DNA from: a virus
Length of the DNA: 24,008 nucleotides
Virus record (IMG/VR): IMGVR_UViG_3300045741_000043
Span: 1 to 24,008 of that record
Reading direction: 5' to 3' (one strand)
The translations under genes and the position numbers were made by a program. The notes beneath the pieces are model-generated. The model worked only from the letters and a program-made list of their open reading frames with translations, did no database searches and was not told the DNA's origin. Below, piece after piece: positions 6,423 to 18,072 of the stretch (within the stretch, counting starts at the first letter, position 1; each line of letters begins with the position of its first letter).

Positions 6423-9400
6423 ATGGCAGAGAACCCCTATACATTGCCTAATACTGTCTTCGCGGATACTGTGCAAAGGCCGCCAGAGCAGCAATCTCGA
6501 CTATCGAATGGCTTCAATCCTATTGATTGGGGCCAAGCGCTGGTACGTGCCGGTGCAGAGGATACGCTGAATGTCTTTGGTATTGATAAGTCGCCACAGA
6601 CGATTCAGTTTGAGAAAGACAATCCACTGGCAAGTCTCGCAGCGAGTTTCGTTGGTGGAGGTATTCCGTACGTAGGCTGGTATAAAGCGTCAAAGAGGAT
6701 TAAGCAGTTTGACTCTCTTTTAGAGGGAATTAGTGCCGCACGTGCTACTGGACCAATCGTGCAGGGGACGATACGCGAGGCAGCGAGATTCGCTCCACTC
6801 GAAGCTGCACGCTTTATGTCTACGGCAGTTAATAATCCAGATCGACTGCCGGAAATTGCTGGCTCTGCAGCACTCGACACTGCACTTGGCGGTGCCTTTG
6901 GTGCTCTTGGCGGTATCGGTGAGTCCTATGGTTCTGTTGCAAAGCAAATTAAAGACCTGGCTCCGAATGTAAATCTTCGAGACCCGTGGACGCTTCAGCT
7001 TAGAACTTTGCGAGACGCACTCTTAGGCGGCCAAATTGCTCCTGAACGCGCGGCTGAAGCTCAGACCTGGATTAACAGGATGAGCAAAGTTGTTCTGACG
7101 GAACAACTGCCAGAGGATCGTAAGTATATTACTTCAGTTTACAATGACACTGGTGCCGGAGGAGCACAAGCGACTGAGAAAGCAAACTGGCTTAATAACT
7201 TCTTTAAGCCGAGACAGCATAAGAATTTGGCTGTCCGAATGCTTACTGTGGCGGATGAAAAGAGTCCATTAGGATATAACTCACAGGAAGCTGTGGACTC
7301 GAGACTTGCTTCACTACCAGATGGTGCAACTGCGTATATGCAATTCCCGAGAGTCCTAGAAGTTCGTGCTGCTGGCGAAGGCGGTGTAGAGTACTTGCAT
7401 GGTCGTATCTCGCAGAACATGACGCAGATTGCGAAGGACACATATCTGACCAGAGAGGGAGACTCTGGACTTTTCGTGATGATGAAGAAGATTAAAACTG
7501 GAGGATCGCGTGAAGCGGTTCCGCTTCAGTTCCCGAGAAGTCAGACTGGTTCGACTGATGAGTACTTGGTCTTTAAGACTGATAATCCTGGCTTCTTTGT
7601 GAAACGTGCTCAGGCTTGGCAGGATCGGCAGATCGCAAAGAGTGCCTGGTATGACCAAGGCGCTATGCAGAATATTCAGTATGCGGATAATACATCTGGA
7701 AAGTTTATCCAGAATACTATGGAACAGATGACGCTGCGGAATTTCTATGACGATCTTAGCAAGGCTAAGACGGATGAGGAGTTCACGAGTCGTATGCTTG
7801 GAAAGGTGGGCTTGAAGCCATCCGAAAAGCTGAGTGATGCAGCACGAGGCATTTATTCTTTTATGAAGGAATATTTCTCTCCGCTACAATTCCAATTCTC
7901 TGGTCCCGGAGGCACCATCGCCAGGTATGTTCTCGGTGTTACAAAGCCGACATACGATCGCGCTAATTGGGTTGCCGAGGATATGGTTTATGGTAAGCCG
8001 ATTTCTCCGCAAGGTCGGAACTTGGTCGTCTCGAACTTCTTCCAAGGTGCTCGTGATCGGCACGGTGATGCGCTGATGCCGCTCATCGAGCGTTTGGATG
8101 GCAAGGATCGACAGAAGCTTCTTGAAGTAATGGGTGGTGGTTGGAGTTCAGAGGTCATTAATAATGCTCATATCAAAGGAGACATCTCGGATAATTTGAA
8201 ATCTCTCTTGTCTCGCCTGGACTCGCAAGATACTGCACAGATGACTGAACTAATGCAAGCTCAGATGAATGCGGGATTGACTAAGAGTGTGCCACTGAAG
8301 GGCCACTTAATGCTTTCTCGCATGTGGGATGGAGATATTCGACTCCGTATTCGTGGAGAAAAAGGCGAGACCGTTTACATGGTCGGCTCAAAGAGCCGTG
8401 GCCAGGCCATAGCGGATGCCGATGCTATTATCAAAACTGCTGGACAAGAAGGTAAGTGGACTTACGATAAGAGCGCACAATGGACTCCTGATCTATTCTT
8501 GCGGGGAACAGACTCTGGAAAGAATGACCTCGCTGAACTTGCGGGCATAGATTTCGGTTCTGTCTCGTACCGCAAAGCGGCGGCTGCCATGGAAAAACGG
8601 ATCAGAGATGTCTACCGTCCTACTACGCTCAAGGAGCGTCTCGGGGTAGAAGGATACTCTATGGATATGTCCGACAAAGCAATCGCCGGACGAATCTTCA
8701 AGCATGCGCAGCAAATCCAAACACATATCGCGGATATTAATATCTCGAATCTCTTACAGCGTGAAGCGATGATGCTGGCGGATCAAAACCCTGGTATGCA
8801 TCGTCAGGTAATGGAACGCATCGGCATGATGCGCGGACAAGCTGGCATTGGCAGTGAAATGCAGAATGCCATTGTCGATAGAGTACTTGGTCCCTATCTC
8901 GGAAAAAATAGTGCAACAAAAATTGTAGGAGCACTGAACACTACCCAGCATAATCTCCAGCTTGGCATGGGTAACATCATGTACCCTATTGTTAACATGA
9001 TGCAGTTTGTTCAAACTGTGCTCCCACACGTTGCGTTCGTAGCGACTGCTGATGCGCGCTCGCTAGCCGAGCACTACAATTCCTTGATAGTCCCCGGTGC
9101 GGATGGCTTTGCGCGCGGGACTGTGCACTGGCTGGACCCAATAAAGCTGACATACAAAGGCTTTAGGATTATGTCGTCTCCTTCTGGCGCGGATCGTGGC
9201 CTTTTCAATCGAGCGGTTGAAGAGGGTATCTTCGCTCCAAAGCTTGTTGAAGAGCATATCGGGGTGAACGCTCAGTTTAAGCAGCGGCTCGGTAGTTTGC
9301 TTCAGGAGAAAGGTGGCTTTGTAAAGTTCATCCAGTATCTCTCTGAGTGGCTCCCCAATAAGAGTGAGCAATTCTCCCGTCTCCATAGCTTTACGACAGG

Positions 9401-10445
9401 CGTCGCCGTTGGGCGTGATCTCATGAAACTCAACGGGGACCAGCTTTACAACTTTGCCAAAGAATTCACACACAACACTATGTTTGGGTACAATATGGTG
9501 GACCGAGCGAAGGCGATTACCGGACCCGTCGGTAGCTTTCTCGGACTTTATAAGAACTGGCAAATGCATTACCTTGGCTGGTTTTTGCAGTATGCTGGTG
9601 AGGCGAGCAAAGGCAATTTCGCTCCGCTCTTGTGGAGCAATGCCGGTACTATGGCCCTCGCTGGAGTGGGTGGGACTGCTTTCTACGGGATGGCTGACGC
9701 ACTCTCGCGAGGACTCACTAATCGTAGCGCGTTCCAGAATACTTATAGTATGTTCTCTCTTGATCCCAATGGTCATCCTGATACCCTTTCTGATGCTATG
9801 TTTTACGGGCTTCCAAGCTTTCTCAATGTGTCGCTGCAAGGCAGCACGGCGGCTCCGGGTTCTAATCCGATGAAAGATGCGTCTCAGTTATTCTCGTTCG
9901 TCCAGCTCGAAAGGGCAAACGCGATTGGCAAAGCAGTTGGTAATGCGTTTTCAGTTGCTGACGCAACAGGAGGTTCTCCGTTTGCAGACCCGGTAGTAAG
10001 GGATACGCTGCTACGAGCGCTTTCTCCGCGTTCAATAATGCGTTCTGCGCAAGTGTTAGAAGGAGATTTTCTAAAAAGTCTCCATACAGGGAATCCCGTC
10101 GTAAAGGGTCTCGGTCCTGTTGAGCGGTTCTCGTACGCATTGGGTTTCAACTCTCCTGAGATTGATCGGGCGTATCGGGTGTCAGATGAACTATTTGCAG
10201 ACGAAGAGAAACGGTTAAACGCCGTGCGCTCATTTGCGCGTCAGTTGAATGTCCTTCAAGACTCCAAAGACTGGACCGGAGTTTCTCGGTTACAAAGGGT
10301 GGTAGTAGCCTCTGGAGTGGGTCTTGACTCGGTGATTCGATCTGCGGTTTATCAGAAGGAACGCGCGCAGCAGGGTATGGTCGCGTATCGGGCAGGGAAG
10401 AAAGCTCCACCAGCAATTGCGAAACAGTTTGAAGACGCTCCATAA
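6423..10445 (+). CDS. giant internal virion (DNA-ejection) protein, 1340 aa
   Basis: This is the largest gene in the window, starting 4 nt after the previous stop with only a weak Shine-Dalgarno. The N-terminus is helical and Pro/Gln-containing. Hydrophobic segments occur at about residues 847-875 (GNIMYPIVNMMQFVQTVL...) and 1070-1095 (TMALAGVGGTAFYGM), which could insert in a membrane. Size, position last in the structural block, and the helical composition with late hydrophobic patches resemble the large ejected proteins of podoviruses that form a DNA conduit through the cell envelope. I see no clear lytic transglycosylase, peptidase or polymerase motif. The last 299 nt are overlapped antisense by a minus-strand ORF. 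Confidence 0.6.
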   Translation: MAENPYTLPNTVFADTVQRPPEQQSRLSNGFNPIDWGQALVRAGAEDTLNVFGIDKSPQTIQFEKDNPLASLAASFVGGGIPYVGWYKASKRIKQFDSLLEGISAARATGPIVQGTIREAARFAPLEAARFMSTAVNNPDRLPEIAGSAALDTALGGAFGALGGIGESYGSVAKQIKDLAPNVNLRDPWTLQLRTLRDALLGGQIAPERAAEAQTWINRMSKVVLTEQLPEDRKYITSVYNDTGAGGAQATEKANWLNNFFKPRQHKNLAVRMLTVADEKSPLGYNSQEAVDSRLASLPDGATAYMQFPRVLEVRAAGEGGVEYLHGRISQNMTQIAKDTYLTREGDSGLFVMMKKIKTGGSREAVPLQFPRSQTGSTDEYLVFKTDNPGFFVKRAQAWQDRQIAKSAWYDQGAMQNIQYADNTSGKFIQNTMEQMTLRNFYDDLSKAKTDEEFTSRMLGKVGLKPSEKLSDAARGIYSFMKEYFSPLQFQFSGPGGTIARYVLGVTKPTYDRANWVAEDMVYGKPISPQGRNLVVSNFFQGARDRHGDALMPLIERLDGKDRQKLLEVMGGGWSSEVINNAHIKGDISDNLKSLLSRLDSQDTAQMTELMQAQMNAGLTKSVPLKGHLMLSRMWDGDIRLRIRGEKGETVYMVGSKSRGQAIADADAIIKTAGQEGKWTYDKSAQWTPDLFLRGTDSGKNDLAELAGIDFGSVSYRKAAAAMEKRIRDVYRPTTLKERLGVEGYSMDMSDKAIAGRIFKHAQQIQTHIADINISNLLQREAMMLADQNPGMHRQVMERIGMMRGQAGIGSEMQNAIVDRVLGPYLGKNSATKIVGALNTTQHNLQLGMGNIMYPIVNMMQFVQTVLPHVAFVATADARSLAEHYNSLIVPGADGFARGTVHWLDPIKLTYKGFRIMSSPSGADRGLFNRAVEEGIFAPKLVEEHIGVNAQFKQRLGSLLQEKGGFVKFIQYLSEWLPNKSEQFSRLHSFTTGVAVGRDLMKLNGDQLYNFAKEFTHNTMFGYNMVDRAKAITGPVGSFLGLYKNWQMHYLGWFLQYAGEASKGNFAPLLWSNAGTMALAGVGGTAFYGMADALSRGLTNRSAFQNTYSMFSLDPNGHPDTLSDAMFYGLPSFLNVSLQGSTAAPGSNPMKDASQLFSFVQLERANAIGKAVGNAFSVADATGGSPFADPVVRDTLLRALSPRSIMRSAQVLEGDFLKSLHTGNPVVKGLGPVERFSYALGFNSPEIDRAYRVSDELFADEEKRLNAVRSFARQLNVLQDSKDWTGVSRLQRVVVASGVGLDSVIRSAVYQKERAQQGMVAYRAGKKAPPAIAKQFEDAP

Positions 10446-10566: not shown

Positions 10567-11768
10567 CTTAACATGATCTCCTTTGGATCGAGTGGGGTGT
10601 ACGCGTCGATGGTACTGGTGCCGAACTTAAGCTGATCACGCTTGAACATCCCGGCTTTAATCATTGTCTCAAGCGTCGGCATAATCTGCACATTCGGGAT
10701 TTTACCCTGTAGGAAGAAGATCAGCTTTGCTTGCGGTATTGGCTTCTTCGTTTTGATATACAGTTCTTGCGCGAATTGATGTACTTCATGGTTGACGTCA
10801 GCGAATCCGTGGGTTGACATTTCTGTAAAGATTTGAGGCATGTGACGTTCAGCATCATGGAGATAATGAAGCGCGGTTTCGATATGCGACTTTGTAAGAA
10901 TTAAGTCTGAGTTCTCTCCGACGGCTACGGCCATTGCGATCTTAAGGATGTGAACGATTCTACGTCCATTGTAATGCTGTAGTTTTGGATGTTCAGGCTG
11001 AGGGGCAAAGCTATTCTTATACGCTTCTTCGTAGAAAGCTTTCGCTTCTTCATCGATACTGAAATCTCCAATAAGCTCAACAACTTCTTCAAGATCCGAT
11101 CGCAACATCGCTGCAAGTTTTTTGTTCTTTTCTGGCGCGTCAAAGATAGAAGTTTTAGGTGCGCTTCCACTATAGATAAGTATAAATCGAGAGAAGAAAC
11201 CCATTCCAAAGGCTTCTTCCGGAAGTAGAACTCGAAGGTATTGCGGCTGAGTTCCTGCCACAATGTGCATGTAAGGTCCTTCAATAACCTTTTCTCCGAG
11301 GGCTCGAGTTCTGGCACGGAATATGACGCCGCAGTCATAAAGCTCGTTAAGTTGGTTAATCCAGTCATTCTCGTAGGCTGGGACAAGGTTGCCAAACTCC
11401 GATGAAGCGACGAGCATAGGATGATAAATCATAGGCCCATCAGGGGTTAGTATCGTTTTCCGACTTTCCTCTAGAATATCAATCATACCTGCTCTAGTGA
11501 TAGCCGAAGGTGCCAAGAAGAGTCCACCTGCATCAGTCCAGAATTTTCTAGCCTCTTCAATAATAATCGACTTTCCCGCCGCAGGAGGTCCAACGAGCAT
11601 AACGAAGGTGTTAGGGTAGAGTATTCCACGCGCTGTTTTAAGTCCAACTCTACGCTCAAGTGCTCCTCCGAGGATACTAATAGCTGTCCAGCGTCGCCAT
11701 ATCTCAGGTGAACCGACATTCTTTGTGTAGTCAAGAAACCCTCCTATCCAAGATTTCAGCCGTCTCAT
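10563..11768 (-). CDS. DUF3987-like P-loop ATPase, probable replicative helicase
   Basis: The protein has 401 residues. The N-terminal half carries SPEIWRRWTAISILGGALERRV, then LYPNTFVMLVGPPAAGKSIIIEEARKF with a Walker A motif GPPAAGKS at about residues 59-66. A segment LVASSEFGNLVPAYENDWINQLNELYDCG (about 122-150) follows and is typical of DUF3987 and related phage helicase-like ATPases. The C-terminal 120 residues are helical and may form a winged-helix or partner-binding region. It directly follows the polymerase gene, overlapping it by 38 nt, with no good Shine-Dalgarno, so coupled translation is likely. The inferred role is unwinding at the phage replication fork. A DNA-packaging or repair ATPase is less likely from context. 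Confidence 0.7.
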   Translation of the reverse strand: MRRLKSWIGGFLDYTKNVGSPEIWRRWTAISILGGALERRVGLKTARGILYPNTFVMLVGPPAAGKSIIIEEARKFWTDAGGLFLAPSAITRAGMIDILEESRKTILTPDGPMIYHPMLVASSEFGNLVPAYENDWINQLNELYDCGVIFRARTRALGEKVIEGPYMHIVAGTQPQYLRVLLPEEAFGMGFFSRFILIYSGSAPKTSIFDAPEKNKKLAAMLRSDLEEVVELIGDFSIDEEAKAFYEEAYKNSFAPQPEHPKLQHYNGRRIVHILKIAMAVAVGENSDLILTKSHIETALHYLHDAERHMPQIFTEMSTHGFADVNHEVHQFAQELYIKTKKPIPQAKLIFFLQGKIPNVQIMPTLETMIKAGMFKRDQLKFGTSTIDAYTPLDPKEIMLR

Positions 11769-13212
11769 TTTTCGGTGCTCTTCGAGTATCAGGCTTGTTA
11801 CGGGACAGCTTCTTTAAGCCGTAAGGATTATCGTCGGATGCCTTGCTCCAATTCCATCCGACAGCAAGGTCAGAGGGATTAGCAAATCCATTCCATTCTC
11901 TGGAGACGATCTCAGATGCTTTGAAGCAAAGCTCATCTTGATCTTCGGGGTACTGGAATAAAATGGCGTCATGGACTTGAGCGTGGAGAGTAATCTCAGA
12001 CATTTCGTACCAAAGGGCCTTGAGACCCTTATTGAGATAGTCACCGATCATTGACTGAGGAACATGAGCCACAGCTTCACGATGAGTTGCAGTGTCCCAT
12101 AAGCGGCCAAGAAACCTACGACGACGCCCAAAGGGCGTAATGAGAATACCTGTTTTTTGAAGTTCCCCAATGGTTCGAGCTTGCCAAGATTGTATTCCGG
12201 GAAAGGCGCGAAAGTAATCTGTTTGGAAAGCTTTAGTGATGTCAGTTGTGAGTTTGAGATGCTTGGCCATCGTGATTGGATTGCCGAGATAATTTGTGAG
12301 GTGGCCTCCACGCTTAGACATGTCTCGATAGCTAAAGTGCCTATAAAAATTTTGATCAGCAAGTTTCCTGTCTCCATCAAGGTCACCTGTCCAAGGATGT
12401 TTCGGCCAGACGAGCCTTGCGACGGTAGTATGGAGATCGCCAGAGTAGCAGGCTTTTGTGTATCCAGGGTCTCCACTGAGGAAGGCAACTGCCTTAGACT
12501 CAGCCTGTTCGAGGTCAAGATAGCAGAACTTTTTGCCGGGATCAGCGACGAATATCCCTCGAAGTTTCTCGGTGATGTTTTGAGCATTCATACCTCCTGC
12601 TGTGATGTTCTTTGATGAGGACCACCGGCCTGTTTCTGTGCCAGCGATATTAAAGTTGAAGCGCATTCTGCCGTCTGGATCGACGCCAGACTGAAGAACT
12701 GAGAGCTTCTTGCCATTATCTCTACGAGCGAGCATCGTGTTGATTAGCGGATTTACGAAGATGAACTCTGTAGCGAGCTTTTCCAACGCCTCGCGATCGA
12801 GCGCAAGGACTTCTTCTTTCTTCTTGCGATCGTATTTCTTCTGCTCCGGAAGTCGGAGATTCGTATGAAGCGTAGTGTAGACTTGCTTGCGACTATTTGG
12901 GTTAAGTGGCTGGTCGATTACAGCCCGACCGAAGGTCGCAAGCAGTTCGTCAATGCGAATACGCTCCGCTTCCAGGTCTTTAATAGCAGCTTGCCTACGT
13001 TCTTCATCTACGAGAATACCACGTAGCATGATTTCCATAGCTGGTGCTGCGAGTTCGCGCTCGAAATTATAAGTTGCACGAGTAATGTCAGTTAACTGCG
13101 GTAGTGTGGCCGCAAGGATTTCCTCCGTTCCAAGACAATCGAGCGCGTTGTAGACCCAGAGTGTTTCCTCTGGGTCAAGCATTTCTGCTTTATCAGAGTA
13201 TAAAATTCTCAA
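11731..13212 (-). CDS. DNA polymerase family A, polymerase domain with Exo III motif (split gene)
   Basis: The protein has 493 residues and a TTG start at 13212 supported by GGAGGA nine bases upstream; the first ATG is at codon 11. The N-terminus contains the proofreading motif Exo III (YNALD, Tyr21-Asp25), but Exo I and Exo II are absent and lie in the upstream UDG/exonuclease gene. Polymerase motifs follow: TETGRWSSS (191-199), motif A DLEQAE with Asp233, motif B RDMSKRGGHLTNYLG (Arg296, Lys300, Tyr308) and motif C QVHDA (His414-Asp415). Motif B has His304 where E. coli Pol I has Phe762, and motif C has Ala in place of the usual Glu after HD. The protein should replicate phage DNA together with the separately encoded exonuclease half. 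It overlaps the next (helicase) gene. Confidence 0.9.
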   Translation of the reverse strand: MRILYSDKAEMLDPEETLWVYNALDCLGTEEILAATLPQLTDITRATYNFERELAAPAMEIMLRGILVDEERRQAAIKDLEAERIRIDELLATFGRAVIDQPLNPNSRKQVYTTLHTNLRLPEQKKYDRKKKEEVLALDREALEKLATEFIFVNPLINTMLARRDNGKKLSVLQSGVDPDGRMRFNFNIAGTETGRWSSSKNITAGGMNAQNITEKLRGIFVADPGKKFCYLDLEQAESKAVAFLSGDPGYTKACYSGDLHTTVARLVWPKHPWTGDLDGDRKLADQNFYRHFSYRDMSKRGGHLTNYLGNPITMAKHLKLTTDITKAFQTDYFRAFPGIQSWQARTIGELQKTGILITPFGRRRRFLGRLWDTATHREAVAHVPQSMIGDYLNKGLKALWYEMSEITLHAQVHDAILFQYPEDQDELCFKASEIVSREWNGFANPSDLAVGWNWSKASDDNPYGLKKLSRNKPDTRRAPKNETAEILDRRVS

Positions 13213-13519
13213 GGGTCCGTTCCTCCACAGGTAAGCCGATTTTTCTAGCTGCCATGATTGCGTTCTCTACGCCATTCGACTTTCCGAGATCGGTATAGAC
13301 TACCATTGCGTCAGCTACGTGACGCCACGCAAGCCCCGCCTCGATCCCGAGAGTTCTCTCCTCTGACTTCAAATCATCAAGCACCTGCGGATAGAGCAGA
13401 TGACTTGCTATTGGAGACTCGCCACGACGTAAGCTATCGAGAAGACAAAGACGAGCGTAGCGAACATTGTGCTCAACATTTCCAGCATACGGGCTTTCAA
13501 GGATTACTCTCCTAATCAT
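13193..13519 (-). CDS. DUF7768-like / nucleoside deoxyribosyltransferase-fold protein, inserted in the polymerase
   Basis: The 108 residues start at ATG 13519 with GGAGA seven bases upstream; the ATG overlaps the end of the UDG/exonuclease gene by 8 nt (GATGATTAG). The sequence begins MIRRVILESPYAGNVEHN and contains ASHLLYPQ, GLAWRHVADAMVVYTDLG and a C-terminal GVENAIMAARKIGLPVEERTL. This pattern is seen in small phage and bacterial proteins of the nucleoside 2-deoxyribosyltransferase-like fold (DUF4406/DUF7768 type). Such proteins are thought to bind or modify nucleotides, but no activity is established for this group. It sits precisely between the exonuclease and polymerase parts of a family A polymerase and ends 20 nt inside the polymerase ORF. 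It may have been acquired by insertion. Confidence 0.75.
   Translation of the reverse strand: MIRRVILESPYAGNVEHNVRYARLCLLDSLRRGESPIASHLLYPQVLDDLKSEERTLGIEAGLAWRHVADAMVVYTDLGKSNGVENAIMAARKIGLPVEERTLENFIL
13213..13226 (-). promoter_or_regulatory. Shine-Dalgarno deciding the TTG start of the polymerase
   Basis: GGAGGA at 13226-13221 (minus strand) is followed after CGGACCC-type spacing by TTG at 13212. It lies inside the last codons of the deoxyribosyltransferase-like gene. It supports independent translation of the polymerase half rather than readthrough or fusion with the gene before it. Confidence 0.7.
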
Positions 13520-14570
13520 CTGATTTCTCCGAGTCCATTGAGAGCTTTGCTCTCTTGCGCATGTTTTTCCAGACAGGATTGTGGGTATACACACTTCCAA
13601 GGAAGTTTAAGTCTTTGCTCATCTCTGGTTGTAAAGCGTGATGTATGAGCATCGTATCATGTATAGTCCCCCGGATGGGGAAGCCGAGAAATTTGAACAG
13701 CCATTGCATGTCGTAGTTGCCATTTTGAAATACCTTCGAGTTAGGTGTCGCGAGTAAAGTGCGGACGCACTCCCAGGCTTCAATTTCCATCTCGTGACTT
13801 ACCCAGTACGATCCGTTATTAGTCCTACGGTCCCAGAAGGGAATGCAGATCGCGCGATCATCTGCGGAGAATCCAACACAGGTGATGTGTCGCCTGGCTG
13901 GCTTGGTTTCGATGTCAATGCTAAGGACTGCATCGCTTTTGAGAAGTCCGATCCAGCGTTTGATGTCGCCAATGCTTGGGCTAATCCAGATTTCTTTTCT
14001 TTTAGCTCTCGAAGTTGAGATTGACTTTTTGAAATCTGTAATGACAATTGGTCTGAGGGACCAGTTACGCAAGACGGCAGATGGATGATAGGTTGGCATG
14101 ATTCGACATCCAGATAGAAGCTTGGACTCAGCCACGTACCCTCGGAGTTTCGAGACACCAGTATGCCCAAAGAGCGCCCAGAGGGCCGAATTACCCAGCG
14201 CAAAACATAAGTCCCATCCACGAGAAAGCTCTTCTTGAAGTCGCCATACTTCGGGTAAGTATTTGGGACGAAGATACTTCCCGGCACCCGCAAGTGGTTG
14301 TAGGGTATAGGTAGCGGGCCAACGAGGGTCTGGTTGCTCCAGTTTGATTGCCGCAAGCTCTCGGATGACATCGATCTTTGAAAGACAAAGGTTCCGTAGA
14401 TCATTGCGATCTGGTCTAAGATTGAAGACGTTTGTATAGTGGATGCTCGTCGGGTCGATGCCCGCTTCTTTGAACATTTTTCTGAGCTCTTGTCCTGACT
14501 GGCCGACGAACGGCCGCTTCGCGATTTCTTCCTGCTCACCATATGCTTCTCCAACAGCGATGATTTTCAT
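13512..14570 (-). CDS. uracil-DNA-glycosylase-like domain fused to 3'-5' exonuclease (Exo I/II) half of a polymerase
   Basis: The protein has 352 residues. Residues 1-175 carry the UDG family 4/5 signatures: GEAYGEQE (7-14), PFVGQSG (20-26), TNVFNLRP (46-53) and YHPSAVLRN (161-169). The N-terminal CxxC of family 4 iron-sulfur enzymes is absent, so the cluster is probably lost. Residues about 205-345 are a DnaQ-like exonuclease: Exo I DIE (Asp219, Glu221) and Exo II FQNGNYDMQW (Asp287), followed by HDTMLIHHALQP. It then stops, before Exo III. Exo III is in the polymerase ORF two genes on. Related phages carry these parts as one chain, so this is a split polymerase. GGAGG lies 4 nt before the ATG. 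It follows directly after an intrinsic terminator. Confidence 0.85.
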   Translation of the reverse strand: MKIIAVGEAYGEQEEIAKRPFVGQSGQELRKMFKEAGIDPTSIHYTNVFNLRPDRNDLRNLCLSKIDVIRELAAIKLEQPDPRWPATYTLQPLAGAGKYLRPKYLPEVWRLQEELSRGWDLCFALGNSALWALFGHTGVSKLRGYVAESKLLSGCRIMPTYHPSAVLRNWSLRPIVITDFKKSISTSRAKRKEIWISPSIGDIKRWIGLLKSDAVLSIDIETKPARRHITCVGFSADDRAICIPFWDRRTNNGSYWVSHEMEIEAWECVRTLLATPNSKVFQNGNYDMQWLFKFLGFPIRGTIHDTMLIHHALQPEMSKDLNFLGSVYTHNPVWKNMRKRAKLSMDSEKSDD

Positions 14571-15147: not shown

Positions 15148-15358
15148 CTGCGATGTCCTTTAAGTATTGTTGACAATAGAGTATCATCTGCTCTAATCCA
15201 TGCGTGTCTTTTAGAACTCGCATGGAACCCATTGCTGCCCCTGCGTAGATACGGGACATTCTACCTGCGTGTGGATGATCAGTCAATTTCTTGCATAAGT
15301 CTCTTGTAATCAACTGACTTTCTTCATCCATTTCTTTTACTTCTTTAGCAGTCTCCAT
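15125..15358 (-). CDS. small protein of unknown function, 77 aa
   Basis: The start at 15358 (METAKEVKEMDEESQ) is chosen because GGAGG lies six bases upstream and the ATG overlaps the end of the Tas-like gene by 14 nt. A longer ORF reaching back to 15577 lies antiparallel in frame to that gene and has no ribosome-binding site. The protein is helical and charged, with a short Gly/Arg-rich middle (HPHAGRMSRIYAGAAMG) and a C-terminal helix (LEQMILYCQQYLKDI). No family is recognised. Its position directly after the Tas-like gene makes it a candidate accessory factor, by context only. Confidence 0.55.
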   Translation of the reverse strand: METAKEVKEMDEESQLITRDLCKKLTDHPHAGRMSRIYAGAAMGSMRVLKDTHGLEQMILYCQQYLKDIADESASAN

Positions 15359-16151
15359 GAGGGACCTCCAGCCTATGTACGTGTCCAAGGTGAGCAATCG
15401 GATATGGAAGAGGGGGCTTCCTATTATGCGTGTGTTCGTAAAGGACTTCAAAGAAGTGCGCGAGGAAAAGTTTTGCAGCATAACGTTTAGCCCTCTTATC
15501 AATAAGGAATGGTGGCAGGCGGCCGACGGCCAAGTGGCCTTGTGCTTCTTTAGTGTCTTTGAATTTTCCGCTGTCAAATAAGACTTTAGCTTGATCAGCG
15601 TAGTCTAAGTTTTCATTCTTTCTGGTTTCAAGCTCCTTTCGTTTTTTATAGACCTGTCCGTAGTACGCTTTCTCTTTGCCCGATACTTTGCAAAAAGACT
15701 CTCCGATGAAATACGCGATACGCTTCATGTCAGGAGACCAGTCAATCTTCTGGCCTTTAGTTTTCTTTTGCCCTGGGACGAGTCCACAGAAACGCCAGAC
15801 GGCTCCAGCTGTGTGCGCGATGTTACAGTCAATGTTCGCTATTAGCGCGGCAGCAATGACAGGTCCAATACCCATTTGTCTGCGTGCCCAAGCACCCGCA
15901 GGATGTTCAGCAGAGTAATGATCGAGGAGCTTCGCAGTGTACGTTTCAAGCTTATCGAAGTTTCCAGTAAGCCAGTCTGCGAGATTATGTGGAAGTTCTG
16001 CTTTCGTAAGTGCTTTCCCTTGGTTCGAGTTCTTGATCCGTGCCTCTTGTACGGAATAGTAAGTCTTAACTAGAATTGCGGCTTCATTCGCAGTCAGGCT
16101 CTTGGCTGCTTCACGCAGGTCTTGCGTGAGTTTATCTATCATAAGTTCCAT
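15345..16151 (-). CDS. Tas-like (Nop/IS110 C-terminal-like) RNA-guided protein without nuclease domain
   Basis: The protein has 268 residues. Residues 94-129 (GIGPVIAAALIANID...VWRFCGLVPGQK) match the helix-hairpin-helix and following helix of the IS110 transposase C-terminal domain. The C-terminus has AKRYAAKLFLAHFFEVLYEH (221-240) and PYPIAHLGHVHRL. The N-terminal RuvC-like DEDD domain of IS110 is absent, and the IS110 serine motif (QSG) is replaced by QKKTKGQK. It is therefore not a transposase. Tas proteins of TIGR-Tas systems have this Nop domain, related to IS110 and box C/D Nop5 proteins, and the gene sits 20 nt from a TIGR-type array. I infer a nuclease-less Tas that binds array RNAs and then DNA. 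GGAG is 8 nt before the ATG; the gene is in the replication operon. Confidence 0.8.
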   Translation of the reverse strand: MELMIDKLTQDLREAAKSLTANEAAILVKTYYSVQEARIKNSNQGKALTKAELPHNLADWLTGNFDKLETYTAKLLDHYSAEHPAGAWARRQMGIGPVIAAALIANIDCNIAHTAGAVWRFCGLVPGQKKTKGQKIDWSPDMKRIAYFIGESFCKVSGKEKAYYGQVYKKRKELETRKNENLDYADQAKVLFDSGKFKDTKEAQGHLAVGRLPPFLIDKRAKRYAAKLFLAHFFEVLYEHTHNRKPPLPYPIAHLGHVHRLEVPHGDC

Positions 16152-16734: not shown

Positions 16735-18072
16735 CTAAAACTCAACTTTGACTTTGTTACTCACTCGCTCAAGACGCAATTGTGTCTCAAGTTTCTCTTG
16801 TGCTGGTGTCACTGCCAGGACATTAATTTCAAGCCCCAAAGCGCGATTAGCATTGAGAGCGGCTGCAGCACGAATGGATGTTCCAGAACCACACGTAGGA
16901 TCAAGAAAGTCAGTGAGTGGTCCAACTGCCATATTAAAGAAATGCTTAAGCATTGCAATAGGCTTGGCACTAAGATGACCCTCCACATTCTTAGCTGTTG
17001 GACAGGAGTACACATCATTCACGACGTTGTTAATAAAGCGATCTCCACGTGAAGCAAAGAGCGCGGTTTCATACACATGCTTGGGACGGCGTCTAAAGTC
17101 CGAGGCAATTCCGGCTCCGTCTGATTTGTGCCAGATGATTGGAAGTTCCACTACGAAAAGATTATTCGCTTTGAAAAGCGTAAGCAGTTCATCATAATAC
17201 TTCATATGGAACCAGAAGAGAAGATGTGTGCTATCGAGCGAGATTCGGTCGAGATTTTCCACGAGACAATTAGTGAGTTCCCAGAAAAGCTCCGGACTAT
17301 CTTCGTACTGCGAGTCATCTCTCTCGGAGCCCGCAGAAGCGCTGTCCTGGAAATTAATGCCGTATGGAAAATCGCAGTGGATGAAATTAAATTTCTCTCC
17401 CTGATAAAATGGAGCCCACTTAAGGAAGTCTCCTTCTTTGATCTCGTACTGCGCAGACGGTTCCATTGGCGCTTCCGCAGTAGCAATATTCTCTTCAACG
17501 CTGTTGCTCCGTAAAGGAGGGATAGAAGAATGAAGCTTTGAAAGTTCAGTATCGAGTGCAATCTTTCTCCGATTATCTACAATCGCGATTGCTTGCGAAG
17601 CACTTTTGCACGCGAGTACCTTGGGGTCGGCTTTGAGGACTTCTTCTGCGACTTGGAGATACTTGGCAACGTGGGCGACAGAGAGTCCGATGTATTCAGC
17701 TGTTTCAGTTGCAGTCTCACTTCCAAGGAGAACGTGCAGTTGTTCGACAGCAAGAACTCTTTCTTGCCAAGATATGTCTTGGCGACGGAGGTTCTCGTCG
17801 AGTTCAACGAGCTTCTGATCTGTCGTAGAGAGAGTTCCAAAATATCTGGCAGGGATTGAGCCCTGGCCCATTTGAATAAAAGCTTCAAGGCGTCGTCGTC
17901 CAGCGAGGAGATTTCCGGAGTCATCCAAGATAATTGGATGGAGAAGCCCGTGTTTTTTAATGCTTGAGATAAGGTCATCTATTCCATTTAACTCCTTACG
18001 GTGACGCTCGGAGTCGTCGAATTTAATCTCTGTAAGTGGTACGAGCACCACTTGTGGCATTGCGTCTGACAT
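16735..18072 (-). CDS. ParB-domain / DNA methyltransferase fusion (beta-class MTase)
   Basis: The protein has 445 residues and GGAG five bases before the ATG. Residues 1-150 are a ParB/Srx-like domain (VPLTEIKFDDSERHR, GNLLAGRRRLEAF at 53-65, NLRRQDISWQER at 94-105) with a helix-turn-helix (122-140). The C-terminal domain is a DNA methyltransferase with motif IV DFPYG (234-238, a Phe variant of DPPY) before motif I DPTCGSGTSI (391-400), the order of beta-class N4-cytosine/N6-adenine enzymes. Phages use such fusions for genome modification; ParB may give sequence recognition. It stops 13 nt before the TIGR-type array, so it can be cotranscribed with it. Target sequence and base are unknown. 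Confidence 0.85.
   Translation of the reverse strand: MSDAMPQVVLVPLTEIKFDDSERHRKELNGIDDLISSIKKHGLLHPIILDDSGNLLAGRRRLEAFIQMGQGSIPARYFGTLSTTDQKLVELDENLRRQDISWQERVLAVEQLHVLLGSETATETAEYIGLSVAHVAKYLQVAEEVLKADPKVLACKSASQAIAIVDNRRKIALDTELSKLHSSIPPLRSNSVEENIATAEAPMEPSAQYEIKEGDFLKWAPFYQGEKFNFIHCDFPYGINFQDSASAGSERDDSQYEDSPELFWELTNCLVENLDRISLDSTHLLFWFHMKYYDELLTLFKANNLFVVELPIIWHKSDGAGIASDFRRRPKHVYETALFASRGDRFINNVVNDVYSCPTAKNVEGHLSAKPIAMLKHFFNMAVGPLTDFLDPTCGSGTSIRAAAALNANRALGLEINVLAVTPAQEKLETQLRLERVSNKVKVEF

Follow-up and report, generated by a model that had tools for sequence, protein, structure and literature searches.

The replicase of the T4-related phages 25 and 44RR is encoded as two open reading frames (ORFs), genes 43A and 43B, with an inserted gene or untranslated sequence between them, and in phage 25 the two products, gp43A and gp43B, co-purify and polymerase activity is present (PubMed Central (PMC) article PMC2988022). 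That precedent implies that a split phage replicase can reassemble. Jumbo phages have a split PolIII alpha (PMC7824862), and in the OM43 phages MEP401 and MEP402 a family A polymerase occupies two ORFs with a small ORF of unknown function between them, an arrangement that recurs in the group (PMC10580990). Here we describe a family A DNA polymerase from the IMG/VR virus record IMGVR_UViG_3300045741_000043 (24,008 bases; "the window" is this whole stretch) that is preceded by a uracil-DNA glycosylase (UDG)-like domain and is divided within its own 3′-5′ exonuclease. The reading we favor, with a probability of roughly 0.83, is of a family A phage replicase that was split long ago, has stayed split, works as two subunits and has its proofreading site completed in trans. 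Comparison with relatives shows, at the level of sequence, a conserved split whose carriers form one clade, with catalytic residues kept on both sides of it, purifying selection, and changing cargo in the gap.

A proofreading domain divided between two genes

Three overlapping ORFs on the minus strand make up the locus, and a fourth gene follows directly:

13512-14570, minus strand: UDG-like domain plus the N-terminal part of the 3′-5′ exonuclease (Exo I, Exo II); putative subunit 1, 352 aa (ORF list and Pfam)
13908-13916, minus strand: Exo I, codons for D219 (13916-13914) and E221 (13910-13908), within SIDIET of the UDG-exo translation
13710-13712, minus strand: Exo II, codon for D287, within NGNYD of the UDG-exo ORF
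13527-13530, minus strand: Shine-Dalgarno-like GGAG before the DUF7768 ATG, inside the UDG-exo coding tail (sequence)
13193-13519, minus strand: DUF7768 gene, 108 aa, ATG at 13519; predicted NDT/DNPH1-like fold, gap cargo (Pfam, AlphaFold2 and Foldseek)
13221-13226, minus strand: Shine-Dalgarno-like GGAGGA before the polymerase TTG (sequence)
11731-13212, minus strand: C-terminal exonuclease part (Exo III) plus family A polymerase domain; putative subunit 2, TTG start, 493 aa
13138-13152, minus strand: Exo III, codons for Y21 (13152-13150) and D25 (13140-13138), within YNALD of the polymerase ORF
11768-10563, minus strand: DUF3987 helicase/primase-like gene, next after the polymerase and overlapping it (ORF list and Pfam)

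The first-pass annotation of this DNA had described the three ORFs, a polymerase divided between Exo II and Exo III, a DUF7768 gene overlapping both parts, and a separate start and ribosome site for each ORF, with TTG for the polymerase; every detail that we checked against the ORF list, the sequence and Pfam was correct. The upstream ORF matches UDG (PF03167; aa 2-172, E 2.4e-15) and DNA_pol_A_exo1 (aa 204-330, E 2.8e-8), and the downstream ORF matches DNA_pol_A (PF00476; aa 98-428, E 7.1e-29, above cut-off) and phrog_17 (aa 14-468). All five DEDDy positions (Exo I DxE, Exo II D and Exo III YxxxD) are present in the window, spread over the two ORFs. The polymerase also has D233, K300, Y308, H414 and D415, aligned to what we take to be motifs A, B and C. 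The gap ORF, which matches DUF7768 (E 6.4e-29) and phrog_355, overlaps the UDG-exo ORF by 8 nt and the polymerase ORF by 20 nt, and the three ORFs occupy three different frames. In the polymerase frame, the TTG at 13212 is the earliest possible start; initiation at an alternative in-frame ATG, 10 codons before Y21, would still leave Exo III in the polymerase chain. For the UDG part, the profile of alignment A2 matches 1vk2_A (E 6.3e-20). Type 4 uracil-DNA glycosylases carry an N-terminal CxxC for an iron-sulfur cluster; within the first 45 residues, C..C was found in 0 of the 76 split loci assembled below.

In the mechanism that we propose, two genes would give two polypeptides, one with the UDG-like domain and Exo I/II and the other with the Exo III Tyr and Asp and the polymerase domain. 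They would be expressed from a coupled operon in which the next gene's ribosome site is written into the UDG-exo coding tail, and the chains would dock non-covalently, completing the proofreading site at the subunit interface. The break would lie in an insertion-tolerant loop between Exo II and Exo III, and after the split the junction would have become a slot with a changing set of phage genes, of which DUF7768 is the present occupant.

Spread of the split and conservation of the exonuclease

Among 50,697 phage records, tblastn identified a single close relative, Caulobacter phage Kuura (OQ067476). The window polymerase used as a single sequence found no match in viral_contigs; alignments of the window and Kuura pair, used as queries on the same collection, gave 21 loci plus 80 of 416 candidate loci. 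Among these 101 scanned loci, we found both halves in 90; of those, 89 are split at the same place, the sole non-split case (L022) being a distant fused protein. Together with Kuura and the window, this makes 91 split loci, with the same loop broken in all. De-duplication at 95% identity of the UDG-exo half reduced the 91 to 76, the set used from here on. Left out before that count were L027, L030, L047, L064, L069 and L087 (without a polymerase half in the locus), L012 (without a UDG-exo half on its strand), the fused L022, and L023-L026 (distant, with no UDG-exo half found). L012 and L087 lie on one contig, IMGVR_UViG_3300020045_019936, which has identical ORF sequence at both ends and is probably an assembly chimera.

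For comparison, we assembled 88 fused loci from a scan with fused relatives (80), seven named phage loci and L022. This comparison with unsplit UDG-exo-polymerase relatives, which the first-pass annotation had recommended, bears out the division: of the 88 fused loci, 2 end before Exo III, and the 86 that can be assessed all keep one open frame between Exo II and Exo III, as against the 89 of 90 that are split. Within the split loci, the order of the UDG-exo and polymerase genes is constant, and they are no more than 2.4 kb apart.

Trees were built on the polymerase part after Exo III, with 45 of the 63 complete split polymerases as rows (21 picked, 24 random). In the first tree, from which L022 is absent because of a stop in the coordinates used, a single branch separates the split rows from the rest, with a Shimodaira-Hasegawa-like approximate likelihood ratio test (SH-aLRT) value of 98; in the second, from which the long rows L107, L108 and L110 are absent, the split branch has ultrafast bootstrap (UFBoot)/SH-aLRT support of 98/96 and occurs in 98% of 200 bootstrap trees. 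By these trees, the split rows form one clade, and the split is a lineage trait of a large, mostly uncultured phage group, not something private to the window contig. Two scans of genome_contigs found no relative, and hence no prophage or host was assigned.

For an uncultured virus record of 24,008 bases, one might suspect faulty assembly or sequencing, or else a pseudogene in decay. However, the same break is found in many metagenome contigs and in the isolate Kuura, 91 loci altogether, and the relatives are under purifying selection; we give this explanation next to no weight, and the sequencing error that had been named as a potential source of the break can be set aside.

The catalytic residues are nearly invariant across the split. 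Among the 76 loci, the Exo I D and E are each present in 76, the Exo II D in 75 (with E in the remaining one), and the Exo III Y and D each in 76. Among 16 listed close pairs of the 25 available, dS was defined in 12, and in those 12 the ratio of nonsynonymous to synonymous substitution rates (dN/dS) of the exo half lies between 0.06 and 0.24; by this measure the exo half is under purifying selection. The median distance from the Exo II D to the Exo III Y is 66 residues in the fused proteins versus 61 + 22 in the split ones, so no part of the exonuclease domain has been lost. The same numbers bear on the idea that a split intein joins the halves post-translationally, as in fractured genes with split inteins. 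In phage MIJ3, a split PolB is indeed associated with an intein and an HNH endonuclease (PMC6892783), but here the split proteins have about 83 residues in place of 66, the approximately 17 extra being too few for an intein, and no intein family was matched in either half; we consider this route wholly improbable.

A structural model is consistent with a complete domain. In one relative, L016, a single TAG is all that separates the two ORFs, which are in the same frame; we modeled them as one read-through chain with the TAG read as Q, using an alignment (A7) that combined 24 fused rows with 40 of 74 UDG-exo rows and 40 of 61 polymerase rows and left out the Kuura rows. AlphaFold2 predicted this chain with a mean predicted local distance difference test score (pLDDT) of 94.6 and a predicted template modeling score (pTM) of 0.92; only residues ~331-350, around the junction at 343, were near 57. 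Residues 184-845 of the model, spanning both halves, align with the Klenow structure 1kfs_A (Z 30.3, root-mean-square deviation 4.8, 559 residues). As modeled, the two chains together hold everything that a Klenow exo-pol unit needs, with the break in a loop.

The first-pass annotation had concluded that the halves must either reassemble or have lost proofreading. Of these outcomes, reassembly is favored by the retained motifs, the low dN/dS and the confident fold of the abutting halves, and presumably it is physical, with exonuclease activity solely in the complex. The competing possibility is that the two proteins never reassemble, leaving a polymerase without proofreading and a UDG-exo protein with a separate job. 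Family A polymerases lacking proofreading exist, and the interaction of the two chains is one that we infer. Nonetheless, the Exo III Tyr and Asp are kept in 76 of 76 loci despite having no known purpose without Exo I/II, which are themselves kept in the partner, the exo half has a low dN/dS, and the gene order is constant within 2.4 kb; we therefore regard this possibility as unlikely.

Several points weigh against the two-subunit replicase. Exo II was partly ascertained by the scan pattern [FG]QN[GF][NM]YD and Exo III was located through the pattern Y[NC]..D, and the relatives used are those that our queries found. In many pairs, dS is close to saturation. The AlphaFold2 model is of a single read-through chain of a relative, not of a two-chain complex of the window proteins, and AlphaFold2 would tend toward completing a known fold, so the binding of the separate chains to each other is likewise our deduction. 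The polymerase halves on contig IMGVR_UViG_3300020045_019936 are divergently oriented, and a Shine-Dalgarno-like 4-mer precedes the polymerase start in only 46 of 76 loci.

The gap and the expression of the two genes

Across the 76 loci, the gap between the two genes ranges from -4 to 2367 nt, with a median of 495.5. Eleven loci are insert-free (gap no more than 1 nt, most with a 4-nt overlap) and still have two ORFs; one further gap is 56 nt, and the other 64 hold 139-2367 nt of cargo, of which same-strand ORFs cover 94%. Gap length modulo 3 is random (23/22/19). Parsimony on the 45-row tree gives the ancestor of the split clade an insert, followed by 8 changes between insert and no insert. 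A clean, recent difference of this kind is seen at the ATGA junction of two loci whose polymerases are 95% identical, L046 without an insert and L052 with one of 318 nt.

These features also bear on whether splicing of the RNA, ribosome hopping or a programmed frameshift might bridge the gap and yield a single continuous protein. Introns are frequent in phage DNA polymerase genes (PMC10580990), but no Rfam match was found in the window at gathering thresholds, and the gaps are 94% same-strand coding. Given the 11 loci that have two ORFs without any insert and the random frame offsets across the gap, splicing in particular is very unlikely, and we hold the same opinion of a continuous product in general.

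The 141 cargo ORFs include DUF7768, DUF1937, MazG and a few endonucleases (HNH_3 in 3; Endonuclease_7, GIY-YIG and NUMOD4 in 1 each). Endonucleases are a minority of the present cargo; the gene that first split the polymerase may possibly have been a mobile one. The DUF7768 gene of the window had initially been taken as the cause of the split, a view that does not fit a single split clade, a gap whose content turns over, and 11 of 76 loci without an insert. On the evidence of these comparisons, it is interchangeable cargo, one of many alternatives.

The fused lineage contains breaks at other positions. At L155:3087-3428, an HNH_3 endonuclease gene lies between the UDG domain and the exo-polymerase, and L122 is broken alike; this second, independent split implies that such a route to splitting is open to this gene family. 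Another independent split is found at L108:2878-3138 (MW202554), where an NrdR-type zinc-ribbon ORF lies between a UDG-exo part that includes Exo III and the polymerase part, and where the deposit lists two "DNA polymerase" coding sequences. At L189:4224-4880, a Lon_C/ChlI-like ORF occupies a gap that divides the polymerase domain, and L160, L181 and L183 break nearby. The fused L175-L179 (e.g., L176:2501-5722) have an in-frame insertion of ~300 aa in the polymerase domain; in L176, it matched neither an intein nor any other insert family at E 0.01.

The two genes are probably translated in a coupled manner, with both subunits made side by side. In 61 of 76 loci, the 3′-terminal 21 nt of the UDG-exo gene contain a Shine-Dalgarno-like 4-mer, compared with 733 of 3447 windows in the gene body, and Arg is encoded by AGR codons in 29 of 53 cases in the tail versus 311 of 1764. 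Because of these two biases, the conserved KRDE-like tail appears to be largely the next gene's ribosome site; its candidacy as a protein contact is correspondingly weakened.

DUF7768 (12 loci) and DUF1937 (11 loci), which we group as nucleoside deoxyribosyltransferase (NDT)-fold genes, are found in the gap of 23 of the 76 split loci. The NDT-fold ORF ends no more than 30 nt from the polymerase start in 22 of the 23 (211 nt in L031), and it is the sole gap ORF in 7 and the final one in 15 of the other 16, although these loci are mutually related and the count is not one of independent events. In the fused set, either family is found in only 2 of 87 loci, with shorter flanks there. At L038:7614-8064, a DUF7768 ORF lies not in the gap but directly after the polymerase. 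The AlphaFold2 model of the window's DUF7768 protein (pLDDT 87.9, 13 rows) matched human DNPH1 and nucleoside deoxyribosyltransferases in Foldseek, with 8rpt_B (E 5e-5) and 9emx_A (query TM-score, TMq, 0.77) among the hits. The cargo thus resembles in predicted fold the NDT-superfamily deoxynucleoside monophosphate (dNMP) hydrolases, such as human DNPH1 and phage DmtZ, but differs in that the position expected for the Glu nucleophile, after SxGM, varies in alignment A9, a sequence alignment in which E34 is nearly invariant and H40 invariant; an NDT-like role here is a possibility suggested by the fold. In Z-DNA phages, an NDT-like phage enzyme edits the dNMP pool (PMC12884076).

The combination of an NDT-fold gene, a UDG domain and MazG cargo suggests, from gene content, an operon with a nucleotide-quality theme. 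A more elaborate version, which we offer tentatively and think rather doubtful, is that the exonuclease site forms only where the UDG subunit meets the polymerase, making proofreading separable; that the subunit ratio, set by the lodged genes and the polymerase start, tunes fidelity; and that the NDT-fold gene belongs to the same nucleotide-quality unit, which would join dNMP hydrolysis, uracil sensing and proofreading.

Elsewhere in the window, a ParB-like N-terminus is fused to an N6/N4 DNA methylase (16735-18072, minus strand), and several relatives likewise have methylase or ParB-like genes upstream of the polymerase. An IS110-type transposase-like protein is encoded inside the replication operon (15345-16151, minus strand; phrog_4285 "transposase", E 1.1e-37, with Transposase_20 just below its cut-off). 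On the plus strand are a collagen-repeat protein, likely a fiber (433-1392), and a 1340-aa protein (6423-10445) with no Pfam match at E 0.01 and a weak match to phrog_11358.

Relation to known split polymerases

Proofreading residues need precise register, and a lineage that carries Exo I/II and Exo III on separate chains is therefore a natural test of whether active sites survive gene fission. It also offers a ready two-part family A polymerase, in which mixing could add or withhold proofreading, and the order of events is testable, namely whether slots of this kind are opened by mobile genes that later depart. The halves of Kuura were deposited as "hypothetical protein" and "DNA polymerase"; with the UDG-exo half called hypothetical in this deposited isolate, surveys for full-length PolA would miss half the enzyme. 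The Kuura paper does not contain the word "split", and its available part makes no mention of a two-part polymerase (PMC9959647); the available part of a viral PolA study makes no mention of a cut between Exo II and Exo III (PMC9069017), and our searches of the open-access PMC literature met no description of a lineage-wide family A cut at that position.

Kuura, the only named isolate found, shares the split, the TTG polymerase start and 41-43% identity with the window; it differs in having two unrelated small ORFs in the gap and no DUF7768 there. Microcystis phage Mel-JY34 and MW202489 have the same domain order and are 27-33% identical to the window halves, with a DUF3987 gene next in Mel-JY34, but each has one fused ORF, with 66 residues from Exo II to Exo III (the fused-set median). 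In MEP401 and MEP402, the break falls within the polymerase domain and leaves the exonuclease domain in the first ORF (PMC10580990); in the window's lineage, it separates Exo I/II from Exo III, which sit on different polypeptides. The 43A/43B replicases belong to family B, are found in few phages and are linked to a seg homing endonuclease; the window's lineage is family A, is cut inside the proofreading site throughout, and carries mostly non-endonuclease cargo.

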